Notes under the pieces: model-generated | Databases searched by the model: none | The model's input: the letters and a program-made list of their open reading frames with translations, nothing else | What the model was told of the DNA's origin: nothing | Shown here: piece by piece, positions 18,128 to 35,105 of the stretch | How positions within the stretch are numbered: position 1 is the stretch's first letter | How the letters are laid out: every line of letters starts with the position of its first letter | Program-made: the position numbers and the translations under genes | Source of the DNA: Minisyncoccota bacterium | GTDB lineage: Bacteria > Patescibacteriota > Minisyncoccia > Moranbacterales > UBA2206 | Length of the DNA stretch: 45,333 nucleotides | Reading direction: 5' to 3' | NCBI GenBank assembly: GCA_031291955.1 | Contig: JARLIA010000010.1 | Location: 1-45,333 of the forward strand

Positions 18128-20752
18128 TTAGTTACCGTTGCCATTACTGCTACTGGAGTTTCCGCCGACGTTGGTGATGACGTGGATGTCGGTGTTGGCC
18201 GAGTCGCCATCATCATCGACCACGGTGGCGCCAATGTCCAGGGTGGTTGATTTTTGGTCATCGGGAATTTGGTAGGTGTAGGTGAAGGAGTTGTCATTGC
18301 TTCTGGAATAAATAGCAGTGCCATTAATTGAAATGGTGGCGGAGAGGATGCCGTTAGACGAGTCGATATTGAGTTTGATTGGAATGGTTGAATCGGTGAT
18401 GGTGTCGCCGTCCGAGGGCGAGTCGATGCTGACACTCGGCTTATTGCTGTTGGACCCGCCGTTTCCAAAATCACTGTCCTGGCAAGGGATGGTTGGCACG
18501 GCGTCCCCGGAAGTGTGGTTGTCCTTCAAATATTTTTGGATGGCTTTTTCCCAGCCGTTAAATTGAGGATCATTTGAAGGATTGCTCGGCGGCGGGCCGA
18601 GCGGGTTATCCTTATCGATATAATAGAGAATGCTGTGAGCGTCCACGAAGCTTTTTTTGTCGGAGCCGTCCGGGCAGGAATCATTGGCCAGGCAATAGTC
18701 GCCCTTGTTGTCGCCGTGAGAAATTTTGCAGACTTTGACATCCTTCATTTTCATGGAAAGTTGGCCGTCGAGCACGGGAACTCCGGTTTTTTGGGGAGAA
18801 TATTCAGGAAATTGCTGAACGGTGGAATTTTGGAGGGCGGCGGCCATAAATTCGTGCCAAATGGGAGCGGCCACAAAGACTCCGTCCGCGCCAGCTACCA
18901 AAGAAGAGTTGTCGTTGTTTCCGGCCCAGACGCCGGTGACGAGAGACGGCGTGTAGCCGATGGTCCAACCGTCCCGAAAATCATTGGTAGTGCCGGTCTT
19001 GACCGCCACTGGCCGGTCAGAAAAATTGAGCGGACCATTGGCGCCAAAAGTCGGGGCGCGAAGAGCATTGTTATCTAAAATAGAATCCAACATCGCCACA
19101 TATTTTTGGTCCACTACCTTGGTGCCAGAATTGGACTGGTATTGTTCCAGGGTTTTTCCGCCACTGTCTTGCACTTGCAAAATGGCCACGGTTGGATGAT
19201 GGATACCGCCGGTGGCGAAAGTGGAATAAGCGTTCACATGATCCAAAAGCGTTACTTCGCCGCCGCCCAAAACTAGAGACAATCCATAATTTTTCGGATT
19301 GTTTAGGGTGGTGATGCCCATTTTGTGAGCCATATCAATGGAGGCGTTGACGCCGGCCAGATACAAAGTTTTTACGGCCGGGACGTTCAGTGATTGGGCC
19401 AGGGCGTTTTTCATTTGCAAGAGCCCACGATTTTTGTCATCGTAGTTTTTCGGATCATACGTTTGATTGGTGTCAGTGGAGAAATTGGTGTCAACATCCC
19501 AAAGTTGGGTTTCGGGAGTGAAGCCTTTTGTAAAAGCAGTCAGATAGACATAGGGCTTGAAGGAGGAGCCTGGCTGGCGGGCGGCGGTGGCAACGTTGAA
19601 ATTGCCTTCGAACTTGCAATTGGCACCAGGGGTGCAACCAGCTGGCTCGGAACTGCCGAAATAATTTTTGGAACCGACCATGGCCAGAATTTGTCCGGTG
19701 TTGGGATCCATTGAGACCAGCGCTTCGTTGTTAGCTTTATATTTCGTGGCGTTGGTTTGGGCGTAATCGTCAATAGCTTTCTCGGCCGCCTGTTGTTTAT
19801 CCCAGTCGAGCGTGGTAATGACGCGGAGTCCGCCATTTTCCACTTCGTCGTCGCCATATTTGGCTTCCAGATATTGCTTAATATACATCACGAAATGCGG
19901 AGCAGACATATTCTGGCTGGGTGGTTTTATCTTGGAAAGCACATCGATTTTTTTGGCGGCTATGGCTTGGGCTTGGGTAATATAACCCAACTTGGCCATC
20001 TGACTGAGCGCGTACTGCTGGCGGGCGAGAAGTTTCTGAGTATTGTTGCCGTAGGGGGAATAGTAAGTCGGCGCCTGCGGGAGCGAGGCCAAGAGAGCTG
20101 CTTCGTCGAGCGTCAGTTGGTTGGCGTGAACGCCGAAAAAAGTCTCCGCCGCCGCTTCGATTCCATAAGCGTTTGAGCCGTAAGGAATTTCATTGAGATA
20201 CATGTCCAAAATTTCGTCCTTGCTATATTTTTGGTCTATTTCGATAGCCAGGATGGCTTCTTTGATTTTTCGTGACAACGTTTTTTGCGAAGTGAGAAGG
20301 GAAATTTTCACCAATTGTTGAGTGATAGTGGAAGCGCCCTGGGCCGCACCCAAATGCAAAACGTCGGCTAGCCCAGCCCGAAAAATGGAAGTTATTTCGA
20401 TGCCGGAATTTGTATAAAAGTTTTGATCTTCAAGGGAGATGGTGGCGTATTTGGCTGAGTCGGGGATATTGGAAAAGGGGATCTCGGTCCGTTTTTCGTC
20501 GCCATGGATCTCGTAGAGCAGATGGGCGCCGGTTCGGTCGTAAATCTTGGTCGATTGGGCTAAGTCCATCTGGCTCAATTTTCCCGGACTGGGAAGGTCG
20601 CGAGAAAACCACGCAAAAACACCGCCGGCCGTCAAAACACCGGCTAGCACAAGCCACAAAAAAATTTTCAAAAACAGCTTCCACTTGAGTTTCAGCCGCC
20701 GCTTTTTGGGCGTTCCGTCGGGGAGATTGTTTTTGGGAGAAAATATTTGCAT
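18128..20752 (-). CDS. Class A penicillin-binding protein (glycosyltransferase-transpeptidase)
   Basis: About 874 residues from the ATG at 20752 (MQIFSPKNN); a TTG at 20767 is less likely. A basic cytoplasmic tail and one membrane helix (FLKIFLWLVLAGVLTAGGV) are followed by the GT51 domain: SLEDQNFYTNSGI and QGASTITQQLVK. The transpeptidase domain has SSFKP (nucleophile Ser, residue ~393), SLN and AVKTGTTNDFRDGW (~582). After residue ~700 come an EF-like/Cys-containing segment and an Ig-like domain (VSIDSPSDGDTITDSTIPI). It polymerises and cross-links peptidoglycan outside the membrane. It is a single-gene unit with its own promoter. Confidence 0.93.
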   Translation of the reverse strand: MQIFSPKNNLPDGTPKKRRLKLKWKLFLKIFLWLVLAGVLTAGGVFAWFSRDLPSPGKLSQMDLAQSTKIYDRTGAHLLYEIHGDEKRTEIPFSNIPDSAKYATISLEDQNFYTNSGIEITSIFRAGLADVLHLGAAQGASTITQQLVKISLLTSQKTLSRKIKEAILAIEIDQKYSKDEILDMYLNEIPYGSNAYGIEAAAETFFGVHANQLTLDEAALLASLPQAPTYYSPYGNNTQKLLARQQYALSQMAKLGYITQAQAIAAKKIDVLSKIKPPSQNMSAPHFVMYIKQYLEAKYGDDEVENGGLRVITTLDWDKQQAAEKAIDDYAQTNATKYKANNEALVSMDPNTGQILAMVGSKNYFGSSEPAGCTPGANCKFEGNFNVATAARQPGSSFKPYVYLTAFTKGFTPETQLWDVDTNFSTDTNQTYDPKNYDDKNRGLLQMKNALAQSLNVPAVKTLYLAGVNASIDMAHKMGITTLNNPKNYGLSLVLGGGEVTLLDHVNAYSTFATGGIHHPTVAILQVQDSGGKTLEQYQSNSGTKVVDQKYVAMLDSILDNNALRAPTFGANGPLNFSDRPVAVKTGTTNDFRDGWTIGYTPSLVTGVWAGNNDNSSLVAGADGVFVAAPIWHEFMAAALQNSTVQQFPEYSPQKTGVPVLDGQLSMKMKDVKVCKISHGDNKGDYCLANDSCPDGSDKKSFVDAHSILYYIDKDNPLGPPPSNPSNDPQFNGWEKAIQKYLKDNHTSGDAVPTIPCQDSDFGNGGSNSNKPSVSIDSPSDGDTITDSTIPIKLNIDSSNGILSATISINGTAIYSRSNDNSFTYTYQIPDDQKSTTLDIGATVVDDDGDSANTDIHVITNVGGNSSSSNGNGN

Positions 20753-20782
20753 AAAAAACGCGGGCAATTAAAGGTGGCTACC

Positions 20783-20863: not shown

Positions 20864-21775
20864 TTATTTTTTTACTAACGCCTCAATTATTTTTTTGGCC
20901 ACATTGATCCCAGTGGCCTCTTCGAATCCTTGAAATTGGGCGGAAGTATTAATCTCAATGGCCAAATATTGGTCACCATTTTTGATGAAATCCAATCCGG
21001 CGTAAAAAAGTTTCCCTTTCTGGATTATGGCTTGGCAAGCTTTTTCCAATTTTTGATCTATGGCGAATGGTTCAGCCTTTCCTCCTAGGTAAAGATTGGC
21101 TCTGAAGTCTCCGTTTTGGGAATTCCTTTTTATTCCACCAAGCAGTTCTCCATCTAGACATAGCACGCGATAATCGCTGCCTCTGGCACTTTCGATGTAT
21201 TCTTGAAGGATAAAAGATGATCTTAAGAACGGCACCAGTTCTTTGTCCGCTTTATTTTGATAAATGTTCCGGATAAATTTTTTTAAACTTTCTATTGAGC
21301 CGACAAGCTCCACTTCAGCCCCTCCCGATCCAAACGTTTTTTTGATGACACAAGGGAAGCCACCTACGTATCTAATTCCATCAAGCAACGTCTTCTCACA
21401 AGATACGAGTATGGTTTTTGGAGTTTTAACGCGCGCCCGAGCAAGAAAATGATTGGCAAACATTTTGTCGGAAAAATCGATGGAGGATTGTGTCGGCCAG
21501 GTAAAATAGGTGCTTTTTGAATATAGTTTTTCAAAATAATGGCTCAGGTTGGAATTGGATAGTATCCAGCAGAGCGTGTTTTTATCCAGGACTATCGGGA
21601 GATGTCCGGCTATTTTATAAAGCCCATCTTGCGTCATTGGGACGTCCCGGTGCAAATTGAAACTTTCAAATTCCAAGTTCATTTTTTCCGTCTCCTCTTT
21701 CAGCCGACAAACTCGCTTGTCGGAAGCTGATGAATGGAAGACAATGATCCTTTTCTGATTATTCATTTCCGGCAT
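20864..21775 (-). CDS. RimK-like ATP-grasp ligase (fourth of the array)
   Basis: 303 residues (an ATG at 21766 is an alternative start). The N-terminal Rossmann-like half includes FHSSASDKRVCRLKEETEKM. The ATP-grasp core includes PKTILVSCEKTL, FPCVIKKTFGSGGAEVELV (the Lys and Gly-rich loop), SSFILQEYIESARGSDYRVL and LAIEINTSAQFQGFEEATG (the Mg-binding Glu and Asn). Enzymes of this group join an amino acid to a carboxylate using ATP. It starts 4 bases after the previous ATP-grasp gene stops. Substrate unknown; it is most similar in layout to its immediate neighbour, suggesting duplication. Confidence 0.8.
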   Translation of the reverse strand: MPEMNNQKRIIVFHSSASDKRVCRLKEETEKMNLEFESFNLHRDVPMTQDGLYKIAGHLPIVLDKNTLCWILSNSNLSHYFEKLYSKSTYFTWPTQSSIDFSDKMFANHFLARARVKTPKTILVSCEKTLLDGIRYVGGFPCVIKKTFGSGGAEVELVGSIESLKKFIRNIYQNKADKELVPFLRSSFILQEYIESARGSDYRVLCLDGELLGGIKRNSQNGDFRANLYLGGKAEPFAIDQKLEKACQAIIQKGKLFYAGLDFIKNGDQYLAIEINTSAQFQGFEEATGINVAKKIIEALVKK

Positions 21776-21779
21776 TTAA

Positions 21780-22658
21780 TTATTTATGTTTCTTGCCGTA
21801 TAGGCTGACAGCGCGTTCGATGATGTATTTGGCCGGGTTTAGACCGGTGATTCTTTTGAAGGCCTGCCATTGAGGAGAGATATTGACCTCGATGACATAC
21901 CACCGCTTTTTATTTTTCGCCCAAGCCAGGTCGACCCCAGCGACTTCGTAGCGCATGATTTTGGCGGCGTTCCGGGCTAATTTTTTGGTTTCAGGCGTCA
22001 GTTTGAATTTTTCCACCCTTGATCCCAGAGAAGCGTTTGAGCGGCAGTCGCCGTCCAGGAGGTGTCTTTTTATTCCCCCCAGCGGTTTGCCGTTGACCAC
22101 GAATACACGCACGTCCCACTCTATTTCAAGCCGCTCTTGGATGAGAAAATCTTCCGTGGCGCTGTGTAGGAAATCAGCCAGTTCTTTCTTGTCATTAATT
22201 ATCCGAACGTCTCGGCCTTTTGATCCGTCCGCCGGTTTGACGATAGCCGGAAAAAAATTATCAGAGATGAGTTCTAGGTTTTTAAAATTGGGGATTTGAT
22301 AGGTTTTTGGATAGGGGAGATTGTTTCTTGTCAGTCGAACGCCTTCGGCGAATTTGCTGTTAATGTAATTGTCGGAGACGCAACTCTCAATAACGATTTT
22401 ACCGCGCAATCGGAGCTCCTCGATAAAAATTCTGGAGTTAGCCATGTTTTTGGAGAATGACCGGAAAAGATAAATATCAAAATCGAAGAGATCCGCGATG
22501 GTCGGAGTGCTGGCACTGAAAGTCCCATCTTCTATTTTAAGGATGAAATCACGCGTGGTTGAAAAAGCATAGCCGTGGTCATTAGCGATTATTTCATCGA
22601 TCAAGTCTTGGGACAGCTCGCTTATTTTGGAGCTTACAATCAGGAACTTGAGGTGCAT
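21780..22658 (-). CDS. RimK-like ATP-grasp ligase (third of the array)
   Basis: 292 residues. Shares architecture with the next gene: NNLPYPKTYQIPN, FFPAIVKPADGSKGRDVRII (ATP-binding Lys and Gly loop), DFLIQERLEIEWDVRVFVVN, GGIKRHLLDGDCRSNASLG, and VIEVNISPQWQAFKRITG (metal ligands). The G-x-K-R-x(5)-G-D-x-R-x-N segment is the RimK-type acceptor loop and is also present in the downstream paralogue. It probably adds an amino acid to a peptide or protein C-terminus or side chain. Part of a tightly packed run with gaps of 4 bases. Confidence 0.8.
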   Translation of the reverse strand: MHLKFLIVSSKISELSQDLIDEIIANDHGYAFSTTRDFILKIEDGTFSASTPTIADLFDFDIYLFRSFSKNMANSRIFIEELRLRGKIVIESCVSDNYINSKFAEGVRLTRNNLPYPKTYQIPNFKNLELISDNFFPAIVKPADGSKGRDVRIINDKKELADFLHSATEDFLIQERLEIEWDVRVFVVNGKPLGGIKRHLLDGDCRSNASLGSRVEKFKLTPETKKLARNAAKIMRYEVAGVDLAWAKNKKRWYVIEVNISPQWQAFKRITGLNPAKYIIERAVSLYGKKHK

Positions 22659-22662
22659 AAGC

Positions 22663-23658
22663 TTAAGAGAATAAATAATTTATCAAGTTCGGAACGAGAT
22701 GAGCCGCTATCCCGTGGGTAGGATTGCTGTGGAACAATATGTCCGGGTACGTGCCGTTTATCTCGATCACGACCCCGCCGTTTTCATTCGGGTCGATTGC
22801 AATATCTCGGGAAATTATATCTATTCCGACGATTGGCAGTCCTAAGCTCTTGGATATTTCTCGGCTCATTTCCAGAAAATAAGGATGGACTTCTTTCGTG
22901 GCATCAATATATTCCCCCCCGTCGAATCCGCTAAAACAGAGTGGAATACTTTCGCTCTTCGGCAAGATCGACTCCATCTCATATCCAGCCGAGGCCAGAA
23001 ATCTTTCTGTTTTTCCGGATATTTTTATTTTTTTCAATTTACCGCCGGGCCTTCTTTCTTTATTGGTGGCATTTTCCATGGTGATGAGTTCTTTGATGGT
23101 ATTTTTCCCGTTTCCAGAAACGAAGGCGGGGAGATTTTTCATAACAGCATATGATCCGTCGGCTACGTACGTTATTCGGTAATAATCACCCAGAATATGT
23201 TTTTCGATAATAACCTTATCGTCGAATTTCAAGGCCGACTGGATGGAATCTAAAAGCAAATCTTTGTCATTGATATTGATTGTTATGCCTTTCCCTTCTG
23301 CCGCGCTCAGTGGTTTGGCGACCAATGGAAAGGAAAGTTCTTTGATGACGTAGTCGACATTTTCAGGACCGCTTATTGTTTTGCTCGGAGGTACTGGATA
23401 TCCCAACTCTTTCAGGAATTTTTTCGCGAGCTGTTTATTTCTGGCTATTCTCATTCCCACTGGATTGGTTTTTGAAGTAAGGGAGGTGTCCAGCCATACA
23501 TTTTTGTCGTCCTTTTTTAAAATAAGGATTCTTTTGTCGGGGAAGACCTGGTATACTTCTATGTCTTGACTGAGGGCATATTTGAGGATCGCTCGGGTAG
23601 TTCCCTTCAGATTCTTTATATTTTCAGCAGACATTTTTATAAAATGTTTTGTAAACAT
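22663..23658 (-). CDS. Cyanophycin-synthetase/glutathione-synthetase-like ATP-grasp ligase
   Basis: 331 residues. Motifs: RNKQLAKKFLKELGYPVP, FPLVAKPLSAAEGKGITINI (ATP loop), KVIIEKHILGDYYRITYVAD, NLPAFVSGNGKNTIKELI, and VVIEINGTYPDILFHSNPTH near the end. The E-x-N-x(2)-P-x(3)-H-x(3)-P ending is that of CphA and GshAB/GshF-type ATP-grasp domains and differs from the RimK-like neighbours. The polymerase's Mur-ligase half is absent. It would form amide bonds between amino acids, possibly a short peptide. Gap of 3 bases from the upstream gene. Confidence 0.8.
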   Translation of the reverse strand: MFTKHFIKMSAENIKNLKGTTRAILKYALSQDIEVYQVFPDKRILILKKDDKNVWLDTSLTSKTNPVGMRIARNKQLAKKFLKELGYPVPPSKTISGPENVDYVIKELSFPLVAKPLSAAEGKGITININDKDLLLDSIQSALKFDDKVIIEKHILGDYYRITYVADGSYAVMKNLPAFVSGNGKNTIKELITMENATNKERRPGGKLKKIKISGKTERFLASAGYEMESILPKSESIPLCFSGFDGGEYIDATKEVHPYFLEMSREISKSLGLPIVGIDIISRDIAIDPNENGGVVIEINGTYPDILFHSNPTHGIAAHLVPNLINYLFS

Positions 23659-23661
23659 AAT

Positions 23662-25068
23662 TTATTTGGCTACATCAATTAAAAATTTACCCAAATTTCT
23701 CCGACCGATGAGGGCGCTCTTTTTTAGCTCCTGCCTTTCTACAATATTAACTTGAGTGGCCATCTCTATGTTGTCCAAAATTATTTTTATGGAAATTTTA
23801 GGCCGCACAGATATGCCATTTGAAGAATATACCACAGTGATATCCGCCAAGTCGGGATGTTGCCCGAGATATTTTTTCCGCAAGCTATCTTCCACTTGCT
23901 TTGCTTCTTCGCGGTTGAACTCCGCGGGGATATCCAGCGAATTGAAAAAAGAGATGACATCTGCAAAACCGAGCTCTTTGGCAATATCCGTGTCGATTGA
24001 GGTAGAATATGCCCCCGTGTCAATCTTGGCATCTATCTCCACTTCCTTTCCGTCTTTCCCAATCAGCTTTACTTTCTCAGCCGTCCCAATCAATTTTTTT
24101 CCGGAAATATATTCCAACTCTTCCTCGATTTCGCCGCCGAAAAGGTCCATGCCGACTCGGACGCCGCGCTCAATTGATTTTATTTTTAGGCTAACAACCT
24201 TTTCCAGACGTTCTTTGAGACCAGAGAGATTGGCGATCTGGATGGAAAGTCCCGGCCGGGCGTTCAGTTCGAAAAAAACCGGTCCGCGTTCGCGGTCGAT
24301 GGCGATGTCGGCGCCCAAGAATCCCAGGCCTGAAATTTCCTGGGCCCGGACGGCTAATCGCAAAATATCTTTCCAATAGGGGATTTTGATTCCAGAAAGG
24401 AGAAGGCGAGTATCGGGGACATATTCAATAATTTTGCTTTTATTCACAACGGCCGTGGTTGTGGTGCCGGTGGCGAGATCGATGCCGACGCCAAGGGCGC
24501 CCTGCTGCAGATTGGCCTTGCCGCCGGATTCTTTGGTGGGGAGACGGAGCATCGCCATCACGGGAACTTTATTGAAAACGATAACCCGGATATCCGGGAT
24601 ACCCTTGAAAGCGTAGGGCTTGAAAAGTTTCAGAAGCTGGAGCCGTTCTTCGAAAAAAGCGATATCGGGCGTTCCGGAAAGAGAATATGCGCCGTCGATG
24701 ATGTTTCGGATGTGGCTCTTGAGATCTTCCACGGTGATGATCGAGCGATCGGCTTTCACCCAAGCGTCGGCGCGGCCCTTTTTGTGGCTATAAACTACCA
24801 AGATTCCTTCACCGCCGAAACCGCGGTTTGGTTTCAAGGCGAAGCTATCCGGCAATTTTGACCAATCGAACTTTTCCAATTGGTCGAGATCTTTGATTTT
24901 AGCGATGAGCTTCGGGACTGGTAAGTTGTTTTTGGCCAAAACTTTTTTGCTCAAGAGCTTGTCATCAGCCAAGCGCTTAGCGCGCGACAAATTGAAAGGA
25001 CGGATGAAATCCAAATTGCGGGCGTTCATGCCGAGAATTTTTTTGCTATTGCGAAGATAGTTGAACAT
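23662..25068 (-). CDS. ATP-grasp ligase fused to retropepsin-like (RimK/LysX zinc-protease family) domain
   Basis: 468 residues. Residues ~1-310 are an 'alpha-L-glutamate ligase-like' ATP-grasp: LLSKKVLAKNNLPVPKLIAK, FALKPNRGFGGEGILVVY, FEERLQLLKLFKPYAFKG and VFFELNARPGLSIQIANLSG. Residues ~330-468 match the putative ATP-dependent zinc protease/aspartyl-protease-like family: LIGTAEKVKLIGKDG, AKIDTGAYSTSIDT (the DTGA of retropepsins), SIKIILDNIEMATQVNIVER and ALIGRRNLGKFLIDVAK. In most genomes these are separate neighbouring genes; here they are one chain. The ligase would make and the protease trim or release a peptide modification. It is preceded by the 7TM gene. Confidence 0.82.
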   Translation of the reverse strand: MFNYLRNSKKILGMNARNLDFIRPFNLSRAKRLADDKLLSKKVLAKNNLPVPKLIAKIKDLDQLEKFDWSKLPDSFALKPNRGFGGEGILVVYSHKKGRADAWVKADRSIITVEDLKSHIRNIIDGAYSLSGTPDIAFFEERLQLLKLFKPYAFKGIPDIRVIVFNKVPVMAMLRLPTKESGGKANLQQGALGVGIDLATGTTTTAVVNKSKIIEYVPDTRLLLSGIKIPYWKDILRLAVRAQEISGLGFLGADIAIDRERGPVFFELNARPGLSIQIANLSGLKERLEKVVSLKIKSIERGVRVGMDLFGGEIEEELEYISGKKLIGTAEKVKLIGKDGKEVEIDAKIDTGAYSTSIDTDIAKELGFADVISFFNSLDIPAEFNREEAKQVEDSLRKKYLGQHPDLADITVVYSSNGISVRPKISIKIILDNIEMATQVNIVERQELKKSALIGRRNLGKFLIDVAK

Positions 25069-25069
25069 T

Positions 25070-25744
25070 CTACATTTTCTTAATCACTTCCCGAAACCGG
25101 AAATATTCACTGATGCGGAGTCCCGTCCATTTGCCCAAGATGACGTTTATCGGCAAAGTAAGAAGTACCACCCAGGGATGAAGGGCGATGAATTGGACAA
25201 AACTGACGGAGCCGGCGATAAAATAGCCGATAATCGAAATAATCAGAGTTTCAATGGCCAGTATGATGGCTACACGGTCACCCTTTTCAATTTGGACGGT
25301 CACGAATTTTTCTACCAGCGTAATCATGATGAGGATAGGGAAAATGGAAACAGCTGCCAGTCCTGTTCGGCGGAGATCGCCGCCGATAGTCAGTACGCCT
25401 AAAATGAAAATGGCAACAATGGTAAGCATGATGGCCACTCGCGGAAGATAGAGGAGGCGGAAAGGTTTTAGAACGAAGCGCATCAGCATGCCGCTCAAGA
25501 TGACGGCCGCGAAAATTGCAACGCCGTATTTCAGACCATTGGTCGCCAAAAAAGCGAAAGTGATGATGAGTGGAGTATAAATTCCAAAAGCTTTGATGCC
25601 GGCCACTTGGCGCAAAAAGGCGATGAGAGTGGCAATAATCGGCAAAATCAAAAGCAAAATCACCGTGTCAAAAGGCACGCCGGCGCGGATAAAAAAGTAG
25701 ATGATGGAACTGACGTAAAGATGTTGGCCGGGTAGATATTGCAT
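25070..25744 (-). CDS. 7TM membrane protein of the transglutaminase-7TM family (7TM part only)
   Basis: 224 residues, nearly all membrane helices (VILLLILPIIATLIAFLRQV, FGIYTPLIITFAFLATNG, IVAIFILGVLTIGGDLR, TLVEKFVTVQIEKGDR and others). It matches the seven-helix module that is usually fused to an inactive transglutaminase-like domain and found next to a glutamate-ligase-like ATP-grasp and a retropepsin-like protease. The transglutaminase part is absent here. The known gene neighbourhood strongly supports the identification. It probably anchors the ligase system at the membrane. It lies between ruvC (4-base gap) and the fused ligase-protease (1-base gap). Confidence 0.7.
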   Translation of the reverse strand: MQYLPGQHLYVSSIIYFFIRAGVPFDTVILLLILPIIATLIAFLRQVAGIKAFGIYTPLIITFAFLATNGLKYGVAIFAAVILSGMLMRFVLKPFRLLYLPRVAIMLTIVAIFILGVLTIGGDLRRTGLAAVSIFPILIMITLVEKFVTVQIEKGDRVAIILAIETLIISIIGYFIAGSVSFVQFIALHPWVVLLTLPINVILGKWTGLRISEYFRFREVIKKM

Positions 25745-25748
25745 AAAA

Positions 25749-26249
25749 TTATTTTAGATTATTCATTTTCCGGCTGTTGAGATGGCAGAGCGCGATCGCA
25801 ATCGCATCAGCCGTGTCGTCGGGGCGCGGAAGTTCGGCCAGGTTCATGATGCTTTTGGTCATGAGCTGGATTTGTTTTTTTTCCGCCCGCCCGTAGCCAG
25901 TGAGCGCTTGTTTCACCTGGAGGGGTGTGTAACTGGCAATCCTAACATTATTTTGCCGGAGTGTCAAGAGGACTGCTCCGCGGGACTGGGCGACGCTGAT
26001 GACCGTTTTTTGGTTCTTGAAAAAGAAAAGTTCCTCAATGGCAGCTTCGGCCGGCCGGTATTTTTTGATGATTTCAACAAGATCATTGCATATTTCACAA
26101 AGCCGGTTTTCGGGGCTATTCCCCTTGTCTGTGCTGATGTGGCCGTAAGCTACCGCCTTGGTCTGTCCACTGTTTTCTTCGACTATGGCCCAGCCGGTGG
26201 TGGCGGTTCCCGGGTCAATTCCAAGCACGCGCAAATTATAAGTTGTCAT
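25749..26249 (-). CDS. ruvC: Holliday junction resolvase RuvC
   Basis: 166 residues from the ATG at 26249 (MTTYNLRVLGIDPGTATTGW); the longer frame is a shadow of yebC. Catalytic acids are the Asp in GIDPG, the Glu in AAIEELFFFKNQKT, and the Asp pair in PRPDDTADAIAIALCH. QSRGAVLLTL, YTPLQVKQALTGYGRAEKKQ completes the fold. It cuts four-way junctions made during recombination, working with RuvAB; ruvB is in this window at 30.7 kb but ruvA is not. It overlaps the end of yebC by 14 bases. Confidence 0.93.
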   Translation of the reverse strand: MTTYNLRVLGIDPGTATTGWAIVEENSGQTKAVAYGHISTDKGNSPENRLCEICNDLVEIIKKYRPAEAAIEELFFFKNQKTVISVAQSRGAVLLTLRQNNVRIASYTPLQVKQALTGYGRAEKKQIQLMTKSIMNLAELPRPDDTADAIAIALCHLNSRKMNNLK

Positions 26250-26949
26250 ATATTTCGTCAACGTCATCCTGCTCATCGAGCGCTTCCAAAAGTTTTTCGT
26301 AGTCCAATCGCGTTTCTTCGTCGATAGCGACGGTGCTCTTGGGCAGATAAGTGAGGCCGGCTTCCAAAATTTTAAGCCCGCTTTTTTCGAGAGTTTCCTG
26401 GACTTTTTGCAGCTCATGCGGTTCCGTGAAAACGATAAAATTATTTTCTTCGGATTTTATGTCTTTCGCTCCAGCTTCAATCGCAACCATTTCCAGTTCT
26501 TCCGTATTTTTATTTTCCGCATCGAGAATTATACTGCCGGCTTGCTCAAAATTCCACATTGCGCTCCCGGCTTCGCCGAATTTGCCGCCGTTTTTAGTCA
26601 GAATCGTTTTGATTTCGCCGAGCGTCCGATTTTTGTTGTCGGTGGTAGTTTTTATTAGCAGCATGATGCCGCCCGGCCCCATGGCTTCGTAGGTGATTTC
26701 CACAATTTCCGCGCCTTTCAGCTCACCCGTGCCGCGTTTCACTGCCCGGTCGATGTTGTCTTTGGGCATATTGAACTCCCGGGCCTTGTCGATAGCCATT
26801 CGGAGTTTGAAATTGGTGTCCGGGTTGCCGCCGCCGTCTCTCGCGGCGATGGTAATGGGTTTCGCCAGCCGCGTAAAAATTTTGGCGCGTTTGGCGTCAT
26901 TGACTCCTTTCCGTTGTTTAATTCCGGCCCAATGGGAATGTCCTGACAT
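26236..26949 (-). CDS. yebC: YebC/PmpR family protein
   Basis: 237 residues, standard length. The start MSGHSHWAGIKQRKGVNDAK and GGNPDTNFKLRMAIDKAREF, then NMPKDNIDRAVKRGTGE, are the family signature. YEAMGPGGIMLLIKTTTDNK marks domain II. YebC proteins have been described as transcriptional regulators and, more recently, as helping ribosomes through difficult proline stretches. The yebC-ruvC pairing is widespread. It appears to head the operon that contains the ATP-grasp array. Confidence 0.95.
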   Translation of the reverse strand: MSGHSHWAGIKQRKGVNDAKRAKIFTRLAKPITIAARDGGGNPDTNFKLRMAIDKAREFNMPKDNIDRAVKRGTGELKGAEIVEITYEAMGPGGIMLLIKTTTDNKNRTLGEIKTILTKNGGKFGEAGSAMWNFEQAGSIILDAENKNTEELEMVAIEAGAKDIKSEENNFIVFTEPHELQKVQETLEKSGLKILEAGLTYLPKSTVAIDEETRLDYEKLLEALDEQDDVDEIYDNL

Positions 26950-27109: not shown

Positions 27110-27634
27110 TTACGTAAAGATATTTTCCGAATTATTCCGGTCGCGGTTCCAGTTGGCAGGATTGTTTCTGATATATTCCCGGATGCGGTTCAGTTCGGCG
27201 TCGTTTCGGACAATATGGTCAAAATAATTTTGTTGCCAGCAAAAATAATAATTATTTTCATTGCACCATTTAGTGACGCCAATTTTAAATCCGCGGACGG
27301 CCGAGGACAATGAACGCGCCCACAATGTTTGCCAAGGTAAATCCCGTAGGGGGCAATAATTATTGCCCCCTACGGGTTCAGGGTTGATAATTTCGATAAT
27401 TCCATGGATATGATTGGGCATAATGACAAATTCGTCTAATGCAATATGTGGAAAATGGTTAGGTATTTCTAGCCAGCATCTTTGCGCGATTATTCCGATG
27501 TTGGAGGAATTTATTTTTTGGTCTGCAATGTCTCCGAAAAAATATTCCCGGTCTTTCGTACAAATCGTCACGAAATACATTCCGTTTTGGGAATAATCGT
27601 AATTTCTTAATCGGTTGGGCTTGCGATTTTTCAT
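27110..27634 (-). CDS. REP-associated tyrosine transposase (RAYT, TnpA_REP)
   Basis: 174 residues from the ATG at 27634 (MKNRKPNRLRNYDYSQNGMY). The Y1 transposase features are clear: YFVTICTKDREYFFGDI, the HUH motif in EFVIMPNHIHGIIEI, and the catalytic Tyr in NRIREYIRNNPANWNRD. Such enzymes nick and move small palindromic REP elements. Three palindromes of the same type lie at 27069, 27343 and 27649. The middle one is inside this gene and encodes EPVGGNNYCPLRD in frame. All key residues are intact, so it may be active. Both flanks carry REPs rather than IS200/605-type ends. Confidence 0.88.
   Translation of the reverse strand: MKNRKPNRLRNYDYSQNGMYFVTICTKDREYFFGDIADQKINSSNIGIIAQRCWLEIPNHFPHIALDEFVIMPNHIHGIIEIINPEPVGGNNYCPLRDLPWQTLWARSLSSAVRGFKIGVTKWCNENNYYFCWQQNYFDHIVRNDAELNRIREYIRNNPANWNRDRNNSENIFT
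27343..27376. repeat. REP palindrome inside the RAYT gene
   Basis: CCCGTAGGGGGCAATAA (27343-27359) is the exact reverse complement of 27360-27376, a 34-base perfect palindrome. It keeps the transposase frame open. Confidence 0.85.
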
Positions 27635-27648
27635 TGCGTTTACGCCGC

Positions 27649-27668
27649 GGGGCAAAAATTTTTGCCCC
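27649..27668. repeat. REP palindrome at the RAYT 5' side
   Basis: GGGGCAAAAA followed by TTTTTGCCCC, then CCTACG. Its TACG edge supplies the stop codon (TAG on the minus strand, 27669-27671) of the lamin-tail protein gene. Confidence 0.8.
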
Positions 27669-29732
27669 CTACGCAGCGTTGAGAAGATGATTTAAGGCGG
27701 AATTTATTTCCATCCAAAGTTCATCCAGCCAGCTGACCAGCCAATGTTTTTCTGGTTGGGAAATATCGCGAATAGTTGCCATGCCGGCGACGCGAGGAGA
27801 GGCGGCGTTCAAATTGAATTTTACGGCGAGATTGTAATTTACAAGATCGTTTCTGGTTGCTAGTTTCTTTTTCTCATCCGGCGCGGCGGAATATTTTCCG
27901 AGGGCGGCTTGGATTTCGGTTATCGAGGTGTTTAATTTTTGTTCTGACGTAGCGGGTGCGCGGGCAACGACCTCGGAGGTCTGCTTCTGCAGACCTCCGA
28001 GGTCTGTGGTTTTTTGCGGGGTGATCCAAACCCAACTGTCTTTATTTTTTTGATAAAGCTCGTCTTCGGCAATCGTTTTTTTGCCGTGGTCGTAGGTTAT
28101 TTCCTGGATCGCTTTGCCGTCCGGGCTTCGAAGCTTGATCTTATCTTTGGTGTTGGCAAGCGTGAAAGCGCAGATGTCGCGCGTGAGCTTTTCGGTTTGG
28201 CCGGGCTTAATTTTGAAATCCGTGCGAATGGGATGGTTGTAAAAAATTTCCCAGCCGGTGGCGATCGACCAGCCTTTGAGATTAATTTTCTTTTTGGAAT
28301 TATTTTCAATCTCGATCCATTCGTTGTCGGTGTCAGAACCCTTCGGGTTAGGAGAAAAACTGACGATCCGAATTTTTGGCGCTTTGTACTTTTCAACGTC
28401 AACTTCAAAATCCAGCGTTTCGTCAACTTTGCCGTCGTGAACACGCAGACTCGCGGCGTACGTTCCGGTTTTGGCGTATTTATGTTTTGTGTCTTGTAAA
28501 TAACTTTTATGACTGTCGCCGAAATCCCAAGTAAATTTCGTATTTTTATTTTGGTCTTCGACGTCAACGGAAAAATAGGCATACATATCTTTGTAAACCG
28601 GATCATCTTTTTGGATTTTTATTTTCGGCACTTTGTCGAACTGGTTTTCCGCGCCGGGCGTTGGTTGTGAGGTCCAGCGCCAAGCGGAGCCGTCAAAAGC
28701 GTAAGACTGCTGTGCTTTAGTGGAAGAGTAAGTCCGGCTGTCGACGAGGGTATTGTCTTTGTCGGATAAATAAACCGTGTCGCCCTTAGAATCATTGTTT
28801 AAAGAAAAAGTTCCGTAAAAAACAGTAAATATTCCTTTGGTCTCCTGGTCACCTATTTTTTTACAGCTGCCTTTGTTTCCCTTGGCATATTCAACCTGAT
28901 CTTTTAGGCACCATGTGGAAAAATCAATGCTATCGTCGCTGGTATTTGTTATTTCTACAAATTCCTTTTCGCCGATGCCCGTGTTGGGCGCTGGATAGAT
29001 CTCGTTGATTTTTACTTGGCCGGCGTATTTTGATTCTTTGTCTTGGTTGCCATTGTTATTATTATCATTATCTCCATTATTATTATCACCAGAGCCGCTA
29101 TCGCAGTTTTCGTCTTTCAAATTTTCTTTTCCCGGCGTGCCGCCCGGGTCGCAACTTACTTGCCAGTTGTTGCCGTTTAAAGCGGTCCTTTCCAAGCTCT
29201 TTTTGCTGTCTGGATTTTGGACCACGTGGTCGGAGAAATAATCATTGCTTCCCCAGCCAAGATAATCAATGACATCCTCTTTTTTATTTTTCGAGGTACT
29301 GATATAAACAGCGCCATCGGCCACCAGCGAGGCCGAATAGGTCACGTCCGGGTCAGTTTTGTTATCACTGTCGGACGCATAATCTTTTGAAGCGATGAGA
29401 TAATAACTTTTCGCGCCGATAGTCCCGTTTATAAAATTCAGGTCTTTGGCGCTGTCTGAATTTTTCGAGTTTACGATGTGGAGCGCGAGTGGCATTTTTT
29501 CCAGATCGATTTCTGATTCGGACGGATTATACAGTTCGATAAATTCTTCCGAGGCGGAGTTGCCGCCGACCAGAACCTCGGAAATTATCAGGCTATCAGG
29601 CGCATCATCGGCTGAAGATTTATGACAGGTGATAAAACCCGCCACCAAAAAAAATAGCAGCAACGCGACTGATTGCAGAATGAAAAAAGTCTTTTTGTTT
29701 TCGCCACTTCGGGACGGAAGCGAAATTTTCAC
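27669..29732 (-). CDS. Secreted lamin-tail-domain (LTD) and PKD-domain protein
   Basis: 687 residues from a GTG start at 29732. A signal anchor (ILQSVALLLFFLVAGFITC) precedes a first LTD domain (SLIISEVLVGGNSASEEFIE), then a Gly/Asn/Asp-rich linker. A second LTD domain has KINEIYPAPNTGIGEKEFVE. A PKD domain has KFTWDFGDSHKSYLQDTKHK, and a third LTD domain has IRIVSFSPNPKGSDTDNEWI. The C-terminal ~100 residues include a hydrophobic, Trp-rich patch (HWLVSWLDELWMEINSAL). LTD and PKD modules are extracellular adhesion or scaffold domains. A palindrome at 27969-28004 is read through in frame as DLGGLQKQTSEV. The stop codon comes from a REP. Confidence 0.75.
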   Translation of the reverse strand: MKISLPSRSGENKKTFFILQSVALLLFFLVAGFITCHKSSADDAPDSLIISEVLVGGNSASEEFIELYNPSESEIDLEKMPLALHIVNSKNSDSAKDLNFINGTIGAKSYYLIASKDYASDSDNKTDPDVTYSASLVADGAVYISTSKNKKEDVIDYLGWGSNDYFSDHVVQNPDSKKSLERTALNGNNWQVSCDPGGTPGKENLKDENCDSGSGDNNNGDNDNNNNGNQDKESKYAGQVKINEIYPAPNTGIGEKEFVEITNTSDDSIDFSTWCLKDQVEYAKGNKGSCKKIGDQETKGIFTVFYGTFSLNNDSKGDTVYLSDKDNTLVDSRTYSSTKAQQSYAFDGSAWRWTSQPTPGAENQFDKVPKIKIQKDDPVYKDMYAYFSVDVEDQNKNTKFTWDFGDSHKSYLQDTKHKYAKTGTYAASLRVHDGKVDETLDFEVDVEKYKAPKIRIVSFSPNPKGSDTDNEWIEIENNSKKKINLKGWSIATGWEIFYNHPIRTDFKIKPGQTEKLTRDICAFTLANTKDKIKLRSPDGKAIQEITYDHGKKTIAEDELYQKNKDSWVWITPQKTTDLGGLQKQTSEVVARAPATSEQKLNTSITEIQAALGKYSAAPDEKKKLATRNDLVNYNLAVKFNLNAASPRVAGMATIRDISQPEKHWLVSWLDELWMEINSALNHLLNAA
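27969..28004. repeat. Palindromic repeat inside the LTD protein gene
   Basis: GACCTCGGAGGTCTGC (27969-27984), loop TTCT, and its exact complement (27989-28004). This 'cagacctccgaggtctg' form is another interspersed palindrome, here in frame. Confidence 0.8.
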
Positions 29733-32031: not shown

Positions 32032-32079
32032 AAATTTCAGCGTAATTAGTGCTCTCACGTGTTAATCAGTGGTTCTGAC
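31958..32079. repeat. 16-base inverted repeat flanking the terminator
   Basis: GTCTGAACCACTGATT (31958-31973) and AATCAGTGGTTCTGAC (32064-32079) are inverted copies with one mismatch. They enclose the bidirectional terminator, and the right copy ends at the stop codon of the ATPase gene. Confidence 0.65.
32005..32034. terminator. Bidirectional terminator
   Basis: AAAGCGCGGCC paired with GGCCGCGCTTT around a TA centre. It has T-runs on both strands (seven on the minus side) and serves the small RNA and the convergent ATPase gene. Confidence 0.85.
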
Positions 32080-35000
32080 TAAAGGTCGGTAACCCGTTCC
32101 ACTTCAGCGAGCGTCGTTTCGCCGGAGATGACGCGGAGCACGCCGTCTTGGGTCATAGTGAGCATGCCGAGCTCGACCGCTTTGTCCTGGAGTTCGGAAG
32201 TGAGCGCGCCGCGCGTGACGAGTTCTTGGATGTCGCGGCTGATTTGGAAGACTTCGGACACCGTCATGCGGCCGTGGTATCCGATGTGGTTGCATTTGTC
32301 ACAACCTTTGGGTTTATAAATGTCGCCGATGGCGGGAATCTCGACGCCGGATTTTGGCGAAATAGTCTCTAAAACTTTTTCCATTTTTGCTTTTTCTTCA
32401 GCGCTTGGCGCGACTTTTTCTTTGCAATCACAGAGTCGGCGCACCAGCCGTTGGGCGATGAAAGCGTTGACAGCCGTGGCAATGTCGTTTGGGGCGACGC
32501 CCATATTTTCCATGCGGGCTACCGCGCCGGCGGCGTTATTGGTGTGGATAGTCGAAAGCACAAGATGGCCAGTCAGCGCGGCCTGCACCGCCGCTACGGC
32601 TGTTTCGTTGTCACGGATTTCACCGATCATCATGATGTCCGGGTTTTGGCGAAGGAGTTGCCTTAAGGCTGTCGCGAAAGTGTACCCACCTTCATCGTTC
32701 ACTGGTGTTTGCAAAATTCCGTCCATCTGGTATTCGATCGGATCTTCGACGGTGATGATTTTTACTTCCGGCTTGTTGAGATGTTCCAAGATGGAATAAA
32801 GCGTAGTCGTTTTTCCTGAGCCGGTCGGACCGGTGTTCAAAATCACGCCGTTGGGTTTTTCGATTTCCATCATTATTTTGTCCAAATTGGTTTGCCGGAT
32901 GCCGAGTTTGGTGAGATCATATTCCAAATTGGCTTTGGAAAGAAGCCGCAACACAACTGTTTCGCCGTAACCGCCGAGAATAATCGAGACACGGATGTCG
33001 ATTGATCGTTCGGAGACGTCTTTTATTTCGTCATCAAACTTAATGGCAAAGCGGCTGTCGACGACGCCCTGCCGGACTTCCGTTTTGACGCCCGAGAGCA
33101 TTTTGATTTCGCCCAAGAAGCCTGGGTATTCCGTTTTGGAAATCGCGGCCACGGTTTCCAAGATGCCGTCGATCCGGAAACGGATCTTGATGTCTTCAGC
33201 CCCTGGCTCGATGTGGATGTCGCCGGTCCGGAGAATAACAGCAGCGGCGAAAACAATTTTTACGATATCAGTTGTTTTGCTTTGGCGAATAACCTCTTGA
33301 AGTTTTTTGAAATCTTCAATGTTATCTTTGGCTTTTTGATAATTTTCTGCGTTCACCAGAACCGCCCGGCCGAGCGCGGCCGACATCAGTTTTTCATAAA
33401 TACTTTCCAAAAATTCGCCTTGGCCGGTCACGCGTTTCACTTCGTCAATTGACGTGATGCCTTTTATGGCCTTCAGAATTCCATCCTGGAGCATAGTGAT
33501 CATGCCGGCCTCCAAGGCGGCCACGGCATATTCCGTTTCACCGGCCATCTCGCCGATCAATTTTTCGATTTCTTCGTTGATCGTCAAGACTTCAAAAATA
33601 CCGATCCGGCCTTTGTATCCCAGGCCGTTGCATTTTGGGCAACCCTTGGGGCGATAAAGATTCTCGATGTTTTTCGGGACATCCACTTTGGCCTTGGGCG
33701 AGATGATAGAGATCATTTTTTTGAGCGACTCAACCGACTCTTTGGCGGGCACATAGGACTCCTTGCAATCGCAAAGTTTCCGCACTAGCCGTTGGCCGAT
33801 GGCGGCATTGAGAGATGGAGTAATGAGGGTCGGTTTCACGCCCAGCTCGATGAGGCGCGGGATGGCACCCAGCGCGTTGTTGGTGTGAAGGGATGACAGA
33901 ACCAAGTGACCAGTGAGCGCCGAGTTGACGGCGATGTCGGCCGTTTCGTCATCCCGGATTTCACCCACCAGGATAATGTCCGGGTCCTGCCGCACAATAG
34001 CGCGAAGTCCTGTGGCAAAAGTGTAGCCGCGTGATTTTTCGATCTGAGTTTGGGAAATGCCCGGCAGCTCATATTCGATCGGATCTTCGATGGTGATGAT
34101 TTTTTTGTCGGGCGTGTTCAGGTGGTTAATGATAGCGTAAAGAGTGGTGGTCTTTCCGGAACCGGTCGGACCGGTGTTTAAAATCATGCCGTTAGGCGCT
34201 TCCATTTCCCGGAGCAGAATTTCGTGGGCCAGGCCTTGGATACCTAATTTTTCAACATCAACCTTGATCGAATCGGGATCAAGAAGCCGAATTACGACTG
34301 ACTCGCCGAAATTGCCCGGGATGATCGAGACGCGGGTGTCAACTTTTTTTTCGGCCAGCTTGATTTCAAATGTTCCGTCCTGGGCGATGTCGCGCAAGTT
34401 TATCTTCATGCCGCTCATTAGTTTTATTCTGGAGATGATGCTTTTGAAAACTTTGAGTGGGAGAAATGCGATGTCCTGCAGCACGCCATCGATGCGATAG
34501 CGCAAGCGAACCTCCTTCTCGCCTGGTTCGATGTGGACGTCAGACGCCCCGAGCTTGTAGGCGCCGGCTAGCATGATGTTCATGATTTGCGTGGTTGGCA
34601 GTTCGCCAATCCTCGCCTTTAAGGTGAGCAAATCTTTCATGTCGGCCTCGAATTTTTCCAAGTCTTCTCCGGAAAGCTGGAGGCTCATCTGGTCCAGGAT
34701 GTCGACAAAGACGATTTGTTTATATCTATCCCAGAGATGTTCCAGATTGGAGCGCGAGATGACAAAAATTTTGATCTGCCAACCCCGTTCTTTCTTTAGG
34801 GATTCGATAAAATCCAAAGTTTCTTTGTTTTGGGGTTCGTTGGTAACCAGCGTTACGATCTTTCCGGTGCGATGAATGGCCGCCAAATTGTATTTCCGGG
34901 CTTCTTCTTCGGTGAGTGTCTTGATGTCTTCTGTTGCGATCGGCACCAAATTGGTGTCGATATAGGACAAGCCAAGTTTAGCCGCCAAGTTCGAAGTGAG

Positions 35001-35105
35001 TTCTTCTTCTTCCTGATGCCGGAAACCGGCGATGACTTTTTTGGTGTCAATTTCCTTTTGGGCATCTTCTTTGGAAATGGATTTTGTTTTTAGAATTTTT
35101 ATCAT
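32079..35105 (-). CDS. PilB/GspE-type ATPase with two complete motor modules in one chain
   Basis: 1008 residues, about twice the usual length. The N-terminal ~140 residues resemble the GspE/MshE N-domain (IAGFRHQEEEELTSNLAAKL). Module 1 has LGASDVHIEPGEKEVRLRYR, Walker A TGPTGSGKTTTLYAIINHL (~308), DPDIILVGEIRDDETADIA, SSLHTNNALGAI, and a Cys4 zinc site (LCDCKES...CPKCNGLGY). Module 2 repeats the order: GDIHIEPGAEDIKIRFRIDG, GPTGSGKTTTLYSILEHLN (~756), DIMMIGEIRDNETAVAAV, STIHTNNAAGAV, and LCDCKEK...CDKCNHIGY. Both look catalytically intact. It powers type IV pilus or type II-like assembly at the inner membrane. It is a single-gene unit. Confidence 0.9.
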   Translation of the reverse strand: MIKILKTKSISKEDAQKEIDTKKVIAGFRHQEEEELTSNLAAKLGLSYIDTNLVPIATEDIKTLTEEEARKYNLAAIHRTGKIVTLVTNEPQNKETLDFIESLKKERGWQIKIFVISRSNLEHLWDRYKQIVFVDILDQMSLQLSGEDLEKFEADMKDLLTLKARIGELPTTQIMNIMLAGAYKLGASDVHIEPGEKEVRLRYRIDGVLQDIAFLPLKVFKSIISRIKLMSGMKINLRDIAQDGTFEIKLAEKKVDTRVSIIPGNFGESVVIRLLDPDSIKVDVEKLGIQGLAHEILLREMEAPNGMILNTGPTGSGKTTTLYAIINHLNTPDKKIITIEDPIEYELPGISQTQIEKSRGYTFATGLRAIVRQDPDIILVGEIRDDETADIAVNSALTGHLVLSSLHTNNALGAIPRLIELGVKPTLITPSLNAAIGQRLVRKLCDCKESYVPAKESVESLKKMISIISPKAKVDVPKNIENLYRPKGCPKCNGLGYKGRIGIFEVLTINEEIEKLIGEMAGETEYAVAALEAGMITMLQDGILKAIKGITSIDEVKRVTGQGEFLESIYEKLMSAALGRAVLVNAENYQKAKDNIEDFKKLQEVIRQSKTTDIVKIVFAAAVILRTGDIHIEPGAEDIKIRFRIDGILETVAAISKTEYPGFLGEIKMLSGVKTEVRQGVVDSRFAIKFDDEIKDVSERSIDIRVSIILGGYGETVVLRLLSKANLEYDLTKLGIRQTNLDKIMMEIEKPNGVILNTGPTGSGKTTTLYSILEHLNKPEVKIITVEDPIEYQMDGILQTPVNDEGGYTFATALRQLLRQNPDIMMIGEIRDNETAVAAVQAALTGHLVLSTIHTNNAAGAVARMENMGVAPNDIATAVNAFIAQRLVRRLCDCKEKVAPSAEEKAKMEKVLETISPKSGVEIPAIGDIYKPKGCDKCNHIGYHGRMTVSEVFQISRDIQELVTRGALTSELQDKAVELGMLTMTQDGVLRVISGETTLAEVERVTDL

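Follow-up and report, generated by a model that had tools for sequence, protein, structure and literature searches.

What do four consecutive ATP-grasp ligase genes make in a small Patescibacterial genome, and why should one of the ligases end in a protease domain? The question is raised by the window, that is, the whole stretch of 45,333 nucleotides analysed here (contig JARLIA010000010.1 of assembly GCA_031291955.1, a Minisyncoccota bacterium of the order Candidatus Moranbacteria). The presence and coordinates of five open reading frames, all on the minus strand and spanning 20864-25744, were verified. With their flanks, the features of the locus are the following, where cassette denotes the genes between D and a penicillin-binding protein (PBP) gene:

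25749..26949, minus strand: ruvC and yebC, near flank, upstream of the 7TM gene
25070..25744, minus strand: 7TM protein, RloB-type membrane domain without transglutaminase domain (PF14402)
23662..25068, minus strand: D, ATP-grasp peptide ligase (RloC/RimK-like) with C-terminal retropepsin (RloA/RimB-like)
22663..23658, minus strand: C, cassette ligase, CphA/GshF-type ATP-grasp (Pfam/NCBIfam)
21780..22658, minus strand: B, cassette ligase, RimK-type ATP-grasp (Pfam/NCBIfam)
20864..21775, minus strand: A, cassette ligase, RimK-type ATP-grasp (Pfam/NCBIfam)
18128..20767, minus strand: class A PBP (transglycosylase and transpeptidase), far flank of the cassette

The initial annotation had described four ATP-grasps, a 7TM protein and a fused retropepsin with gaps of 1-4 bases next to yebC-ruvC, in agreement with the reading frames and the Pfam/NCBIfam assignments; the gaps amount to 4 (A-B), 4 (B-C), 3 (C-D) and 1 (D-7TM) bases. 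Its limits omitted the class A PBP gene, which begins 96 bases downstream of A and is a conserved neighbour in the order. ruvC and yebC are probably neighbours outside the function of the locus. The arrangement is not due to chance, since A and B are the sole PF08443 matches in the whole 1.01-Mb genome, the ligase-protease fusion lies in one frame and ATP-grasps are enriched between D and the PBP gene.

Profile comparisons identified A (139 bits) and B (103 bits) as RimK-type ATP-grasps (Pfam/NCBIfam). For the RimK family sensu lato (TIGR00768, cut-off 143.4), A scored 145.6, above the cut-off, and B 131.4, just below it. Neither reached the cut-off of 331 for the S6 glutamate ligase (NF007764), the scores being 77.8 bits for A and 49.5 bits for B, and a role of A or B as S6-modifying ligases was rejected on these scores. 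The best match of C, a protein of 331 aa, is the ATP-grasp part of cyanophycin synthetase (213.6 bits against TIGR02068, cut-off 850, covering positions 155-471 only), and C also matches NAGGN synthetase (125.7 bits) and GshF (135.2 bits), far below the family cut-offs. C thus shares the ATP-grasp part of these three enzymes but differs from them in being a lone ATP-grasp module. The 7TM protein of 224 aa matched PF14402 with 97.1 bits (cut-off 25) and reached only 76 bits against 900 for NF052267, which indicates that the transglutaminase domain is lacking; its predicted structure (pLDDT 87) has about ten helices. Its fold was dropped as a functional clue because the matches to RnfA/NqrD subunits were insignificant (E 0.2 and above). 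When eight proteins were scanned with PADLOC models, no anti-phage defence match was obtained, and the reading as a defence island was abandoned. A promoter scan gave 16 hits versus 9.5 ± 2.8 expected and terminators were at chance level, and neither was used as evidence; the search with PF14401 carries no information, as this family matched none of the control genomes.

The central protein of the locus is D, in which the following parts can be distinguished:

24169..25068, minus strand: ATP-grasp half (residues 1-300), with E267 and N269 invariant in the order
23671..24090, minus strand: retropepsin half (residues 327-466), from PF05618 and the RloA-structure profile
24010..24027, minus strand: catalytic motif KIDTGA (residues 348-353)
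23719..23988, minus strand: hypervariable part of the retropepsin (residues 361-450), with R422 and R445 retained

D scored 230.7 bits for ATPgrasp_ST, 288.5 bits over the whole domain for the RloC-type ATP-grasp TIGR02291 (cut-off 314.2) and 27.7 bits for the Zn_protease/retropepsin family PF05618 (cut-off 27). The retropepsin assignment is weak from the single sequence and firm from a profile of 28 homologues, which retrieved the RloA crystal structures 9g59 (E 4.8e-8) and 9g58 (E 1.2e-7) as well as RimK structures (E about 4e-8). A fold comparison with the AlphaFold prediction for D (pLDDT 87) gave RimK as the best match, also in its complex with RpsF. RloA binds or cuts polyglutamate through residues K46, D48, R114 and R137 (PMC12239564), and by alignment and spacing they map to K348, D350, R422 and R445 of D; the distances of 66 and 89 residues from D48 are the same in the numbering of the paper and in the crystal chain. 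Residues D350, G352, R422 and R445 are constant in all 78 aligned D proteins of the order, and residue 348 is K or R in 78 of 78. As judged from this alignment, the predicted retropepsin of D keeps the catalytic and polyglutamate-binding residues of RloA, and these four positions persist (K or R at 348) in spite of the hypervariability of the domain. D has no secretion signal and its retropepsin follows, at the C-terminus, an ATP-grasp domain in the same chain, so its peptidase is presumably cytoplasmic, unlike RloA. Two D homologues are longer (854-921 aa): L088:4408-7173 has a second ATP-grasp behind the retropepsin, and the C-terminal part of L082:3218-5782 matches no assigned family.

Neighbourhoods of this kind were reportedly first described by Iyer et al. 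in 2009. The combination of 7TM protein, ligase and retropepsin, which the initial annotation had recognized as a known predicted peptide-synthesis neighbourhood, now bears the name rloABC (PMC12239564). By homology, the core of our locus is a relative of the rloB-rloC-rloA operon of Pseudomonas: it shares with that of P. aeruginosa the RloB 7TM domain and an RloA-type retropepsin with polyglutamate-binding residues, and its ATP-grasp resembles the RloC type with a TIGR02291 score just below cut-off. It differs in that a single, presumably cytoplasmic protein combines ligase and protease, RloA being a secreted protein, in that the 7TM protein lacks the transglutaminase domain (it is bare here and carries a PKD domain in other classes) and in that a variable cassette of extra ligases trails the core. 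According to the same paper, 96% of its RloB hits were in Proteobacteria, and rlo mutants show envelope phenotypes and sensitivity to hypo-osmotic stress (PMC12239564). A polyglutamate-type retropepsin and a RimK-family ligase are also joined in one protein in the RimBK hybrids of Desulfotalea psychrophila and others, whose protease cuts polyglutamylated S6 and which occur mostly in Flavobacteriales and Rhodobacterales (PMC11957791). RimBK has the protease first, followed by a RimK domain; D, in contrast, is predicted from its sequence to have an RloC-like ligase (ATPgrasp_ST/TIGR02291) first and the protease last.

The fusion of ligase and protease had been called unusual, but it is near-universal in the order, where D was found in 125 of 131 genomes, and it forms a single open frame in nearly all relatives. 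Beyond the order, the occurrence of D in Patescibacteria is patchy. An even sample of the phylum yielded D matches, mostly strong, in 125 of 380 genomes; among the matches listed, other orders of the same class had at best a marginal one. Lineages with D further include Dojkabacteria, Kerfeldbacteria, Woesebacteria, Peregrinibacteria, Peribacteria and Portnoybacteria. The neighbourhoods of D were analysed in 160 loci, 83 of the order and 77 from elsewhere, with longest-ORF gene calls outside the window. The genomes are mostly metagenome-assembled, and the cassette variation described below is visible within single contigs that hold both flanks.

In Moranbacteria, the locus has a conserved frame of yebC-ruvC-7TM-D-[cassette]-PBP. 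Among the 83 loci of the order, 74 have the 7TM gene upstream of D in the same orientation, ruvC is present in 69 and yebC in 61, and the PBP gene forms the same-strand far flank in 63, the contig edge coming first in 14 others. Outside the order the PBP gene adjoins in only 5 of 77 loci, so this adjacency is largely a feature of the order; ATP-grasps follow D in other lineages too, with different flanks. Longer 7TM forms with a PKD domain carry a hydrophobic, signal-like N-terminus. In L033:2583-4082, L035:7882-9459 and L038:7621-9177, from other Patescibacterial lineages, an RloB-type 7TM domain is combined with an N-terminal PKD domain and no transglutaminase domain.

What varies in the order is the cassette, with 0 to 6 genes per locus. 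Single-linkage clustering with a threshold of 25% of the self score sorted the 223 cassette proteins into 43 families, many with one member; this criterion is permissive and overstates the similarity between cassettes. Family representatives are mostly ATP-grasps of several kinds, accompanied by Mur ligases, MATCAP carboxypeptidases, GNAT acetyltransferases, glycosyltransferases, YdjC and unknown proteins. ATP-grasp profiles matched 149 of 211 cassette genes (≥200 aa) versus none of 208 genes elsewhere in these loci; these profiles were derived from the cassette members themselves, and weight is therefore placed on the 0/208 control and on the Pfam assignments of the representatives. Nine cassettes of the order contain relatives of C (cluster 6), and the clusters of B (cluster 4) and A (cluster 10) have 11 and 8 members, respectively. 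One cassette (L154) holds a full CphA-like protein with ATP-grasp and Mur-ligase parts. Three cassette families, represented by L147:4417-6237 (606 aa), L128:6149-6940 (263 aa) and L153:8341-9741 (466 aa), have no confident Pfam match.

Across 62 pairs of genomes within genera, mean identity was 78% for D, 81% for the PBP and 89% for the 7TM protein, and the mean overlap of cassette families was 0.20; cassettes were disjoint in 33 of these pairs and identical in their set of families in 4. The g318 members L171 and L172 are 94% identical in D and the 7TM protein and share no cassette family at all. Cassette GC content is on average 6 points below that of the flanks and was lower in 60 of 62 loci. 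Given this low overlap between near relatives, the window carries, in genes C, B and A, a single allele of a locus that is polymorphic. The initial annotation was right to count the extra ligases as part of the neighbourhood, whereas its four ligases are not a fixed set, each locus having 0-4 cassette ATP-grasps from many families. Scattering of the genes in other genomes had been named as an argument against the proposed unit; this holds only in part, since in our neighbourhood survey the 7TM-D core stays together, and A, B and C each give way separately to different ligases. O-antigen and capsule loci likewise have conserved flanks and low-GC variable genes that turn over between close relatives. 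The cassette resembles them in all three respects but consists mostly of amide ligases instead of glycosyltransferases. Frequent recent transfer between genera was rejected as an explanation, direct cases being few (41 of 2587 cassette pairs and 4 of 2918 retropepsin pairs), and these numbers are explained equally well by a shared polymorphism of long standing or by rapid evolution with rare exchange.

The retropepsin half of D is also polymorphic within genera, and the ligase half tracks the genus. In 15-residue windows, mean identity within genera was 75-97% for the ligase half and 33-56% for residues 361-450; two retropepsin segments gave 49-80%, depending on the genus. In the tree of the ligase half, seven g318 proteins cluster (support 100/97), as do those of g332 and g338 (100/100), and in the tree of the retropepsin half both groups are scattered. 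An AU test on the retropepsin half rejected a g318 clade (p 0.0008, delta lnL 283), although this test was not blind, as g318, the best-sampled genus of its family, was picked after the identities had been seen. Old alleles kept across genera and exchange both fit the scatter. Co-variation of matched retropepsin and cassette pairs was sought by partial correlation with within-family permutation, and none was found.

Outside the order, the retropepsin can apparently be exchanged for another peptidase. A C-terminal MATCAP domain (PF08014) is present in 18 of 76 D homologues from the rest of the phylum; all 18 have the motif HExxxH and keep E267 and N269 of the ATP-grasp half. The retropepsin site was scored by D[TS]G, as the stricter DTG[AST] overstates loss; the motif is missing in 16 of the 18 MATCAP-fused proteins versus 5 of the 58 unfused ones (Fisher 2e-10, which overstates the case, since related sequences are not independent). 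Arginine occupies positions 422 and 445 in 51 and 45 of the 58 unfused homologues, respectively, and has ceased to be a common residue there in the fused ones. For 4 of the 5 unfused D proteins without D[TS]G, a separate MATCAP gene is found in the locus (L100, L104-L106). The comparison shows that, where the predicted retropepsin site has decayed, a putative MATCAP is usually fused or encoded nearby. The two are not strictly exclusive, given that 13 loci combine D[TS]G with a MATCAP domain, 2 of them in fused form; nine Moranbacteria cassettes contain MATCAP. In animals, MATCAP/TMCP enzymes are deglutamylases, which shorten tubulin tails and take off polyglutamate (PMC10499314). In tubulin glutamylation (TTLL versus CCP and MATCAP/TMCP), as predicted for MATCAP-fused D, a ligase of ATP-grasp fold is opposed by a MATCAP-type carboxypeptidase that removes glutamates (PMC10499314); D differs in being bacterial and fused in one chain, with no tubulin involved. 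The simplest reading is that the ligase would need a glutamate-removing partner and that two unrelated peptidases could serve as such. Replacement of the protease by a deglutamylase-type carboxypeptidase points to a glutamate chain as the substrate.

We give about an even chance to the locus being a Patescibacterial rlo relative that encodes a cytoplasmic writer and eraser of an acidic, probably glutamate-based peptide, coupled to the membrane and supplemented by exchangeable further ligases. The ligase half of D would start or extend a glutamate-type chain on some carrier, the peptidase half would trim or reset it, and the chemical type would be set by the cassette ligases, here C, B and A, through additional residues or caps. 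The 7TM protein may anchor the enzymes or hand the product to the envelope, where it would modify wall or surface; this step is suggested by the 7TM protein itself, the PKD-bearing longer forms, the PBP neighbour and the envelope phenotypes of rlo mutants (PMC12239564). It is plausible that, as initially proposed, the membrane would be the site where a short peptide or tag is built stepwise. Turnover of the cassette and of the substrate region of the retropepsin could reflect diversifying selection on an exposed product, comparable to O-antigen and teichoic-acid loci. Against this reading, retropepsin type and cassette content do not co-vary, contrary to a simple matched set of writer and eraser; adjacency to the PBP gene is mostly limited to the order, the peptidase of D is presumably cytoplasmic, unlike RloA, and the TIGR02291 score of D is just below cut-off. 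More tentatively, and with the balance in our view leaning somewhat against it, one may regard the whole as a polymorphic amide-ligase locus in which a membrane-linked polyglutamate writer/eraser core and swappable ligases would give rise to differing peptide surfaces in closely related cells, as an analogue in peptide form of O-antigen variation, and in which retropepsin and deglutamylase-type carboxypeptidase would be interchangeable erasers.

Diffusible products are an unlikely alternative, in which the variable ligases would yield NAGGN-, glutathione- or cyanophycin-like solutes, storage or signal peptides instead of modifying the envelope. The matches of C to NAGGN synthetase, GshF and cyanophycin synthetase (125.7, 135.2 and 213.6 bits), the CphA-like ATP-grasp and Mur-ligase protein of the L154 cassette and the hypo-osmotic sensitivity of rlo mutants (PMC12239564) would fit such products, but all three scores of C are far below cut-off, the 7TM partner is conserved, the PBP gene adjoins and an osmolyte pathway would not be expected to turn over so fast among near relatives. 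It seems rather improbable that D and the cassette add and remove C-terminal residues to regulate a cytoplasmic or membrane protein, as RimK does on S6: 43 interchangeable cassette families are needless for a housekeeping regulator, and A and B remain at 77.8 and 49.5 bits against the S6-ligase cut-off of 331, even though RimK, also in its RpsF-bound form, is the top fold match of D, S6 tails are substrates of RimB/RimK and RimBK (PMC11957791) and MATCAP trims protein C-termini (PMC10499314).

We consider it very improbable that the slot beside the PBP gene is a general insertion hotspot whose genes are barely related to 7TM-D. Low GC content, the many one-member families and the missing co-variation with retropepsin type would be expected of a hotspot, but the content is far from random, ATP-grasps making up about 70% alongside peptidases, Mur ligases and transferases, ATP-grasps trail D in lineages with other flanks, and none of the eight proteins scanned matched a defence family.

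If the reading as a membrane-coupled rlo relative is right, the locus bears on the product of rlo-type loci, a question of medical relevance in Pseudomonas. Three clues are offered for these systems: ligase and protease would act as one enzyme in the Patescibacterial version, the protease can apparently give way to a deglutamylase-type carboxypeptidase, and the locus lies next to a gene for a cell-wall synthase and varies in the manner of surface-antigen loci. Should the product reach the surface, it could make bacteria with tiny genomes look different to hosts and phages, as a trait that varies among them.

Three further genes of the window, all on the minus strand, were noted. Beside yebC, an IS200-like (Y1) transposase-type reading frame at 27110-27655 (Pfam 22.8, cut-off 23) looks like a REP-associated transposase. 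The gene at 27669-29732 encodes a 687-aa protein with three lamin-tail domains and one PKD domain that is probably secreted, and the 1008-aa protein encoded at 32079-35105 contains two type II/IV secretion ATPase (T2SSE) stretches and looks like two pilus ATPases in tandem.
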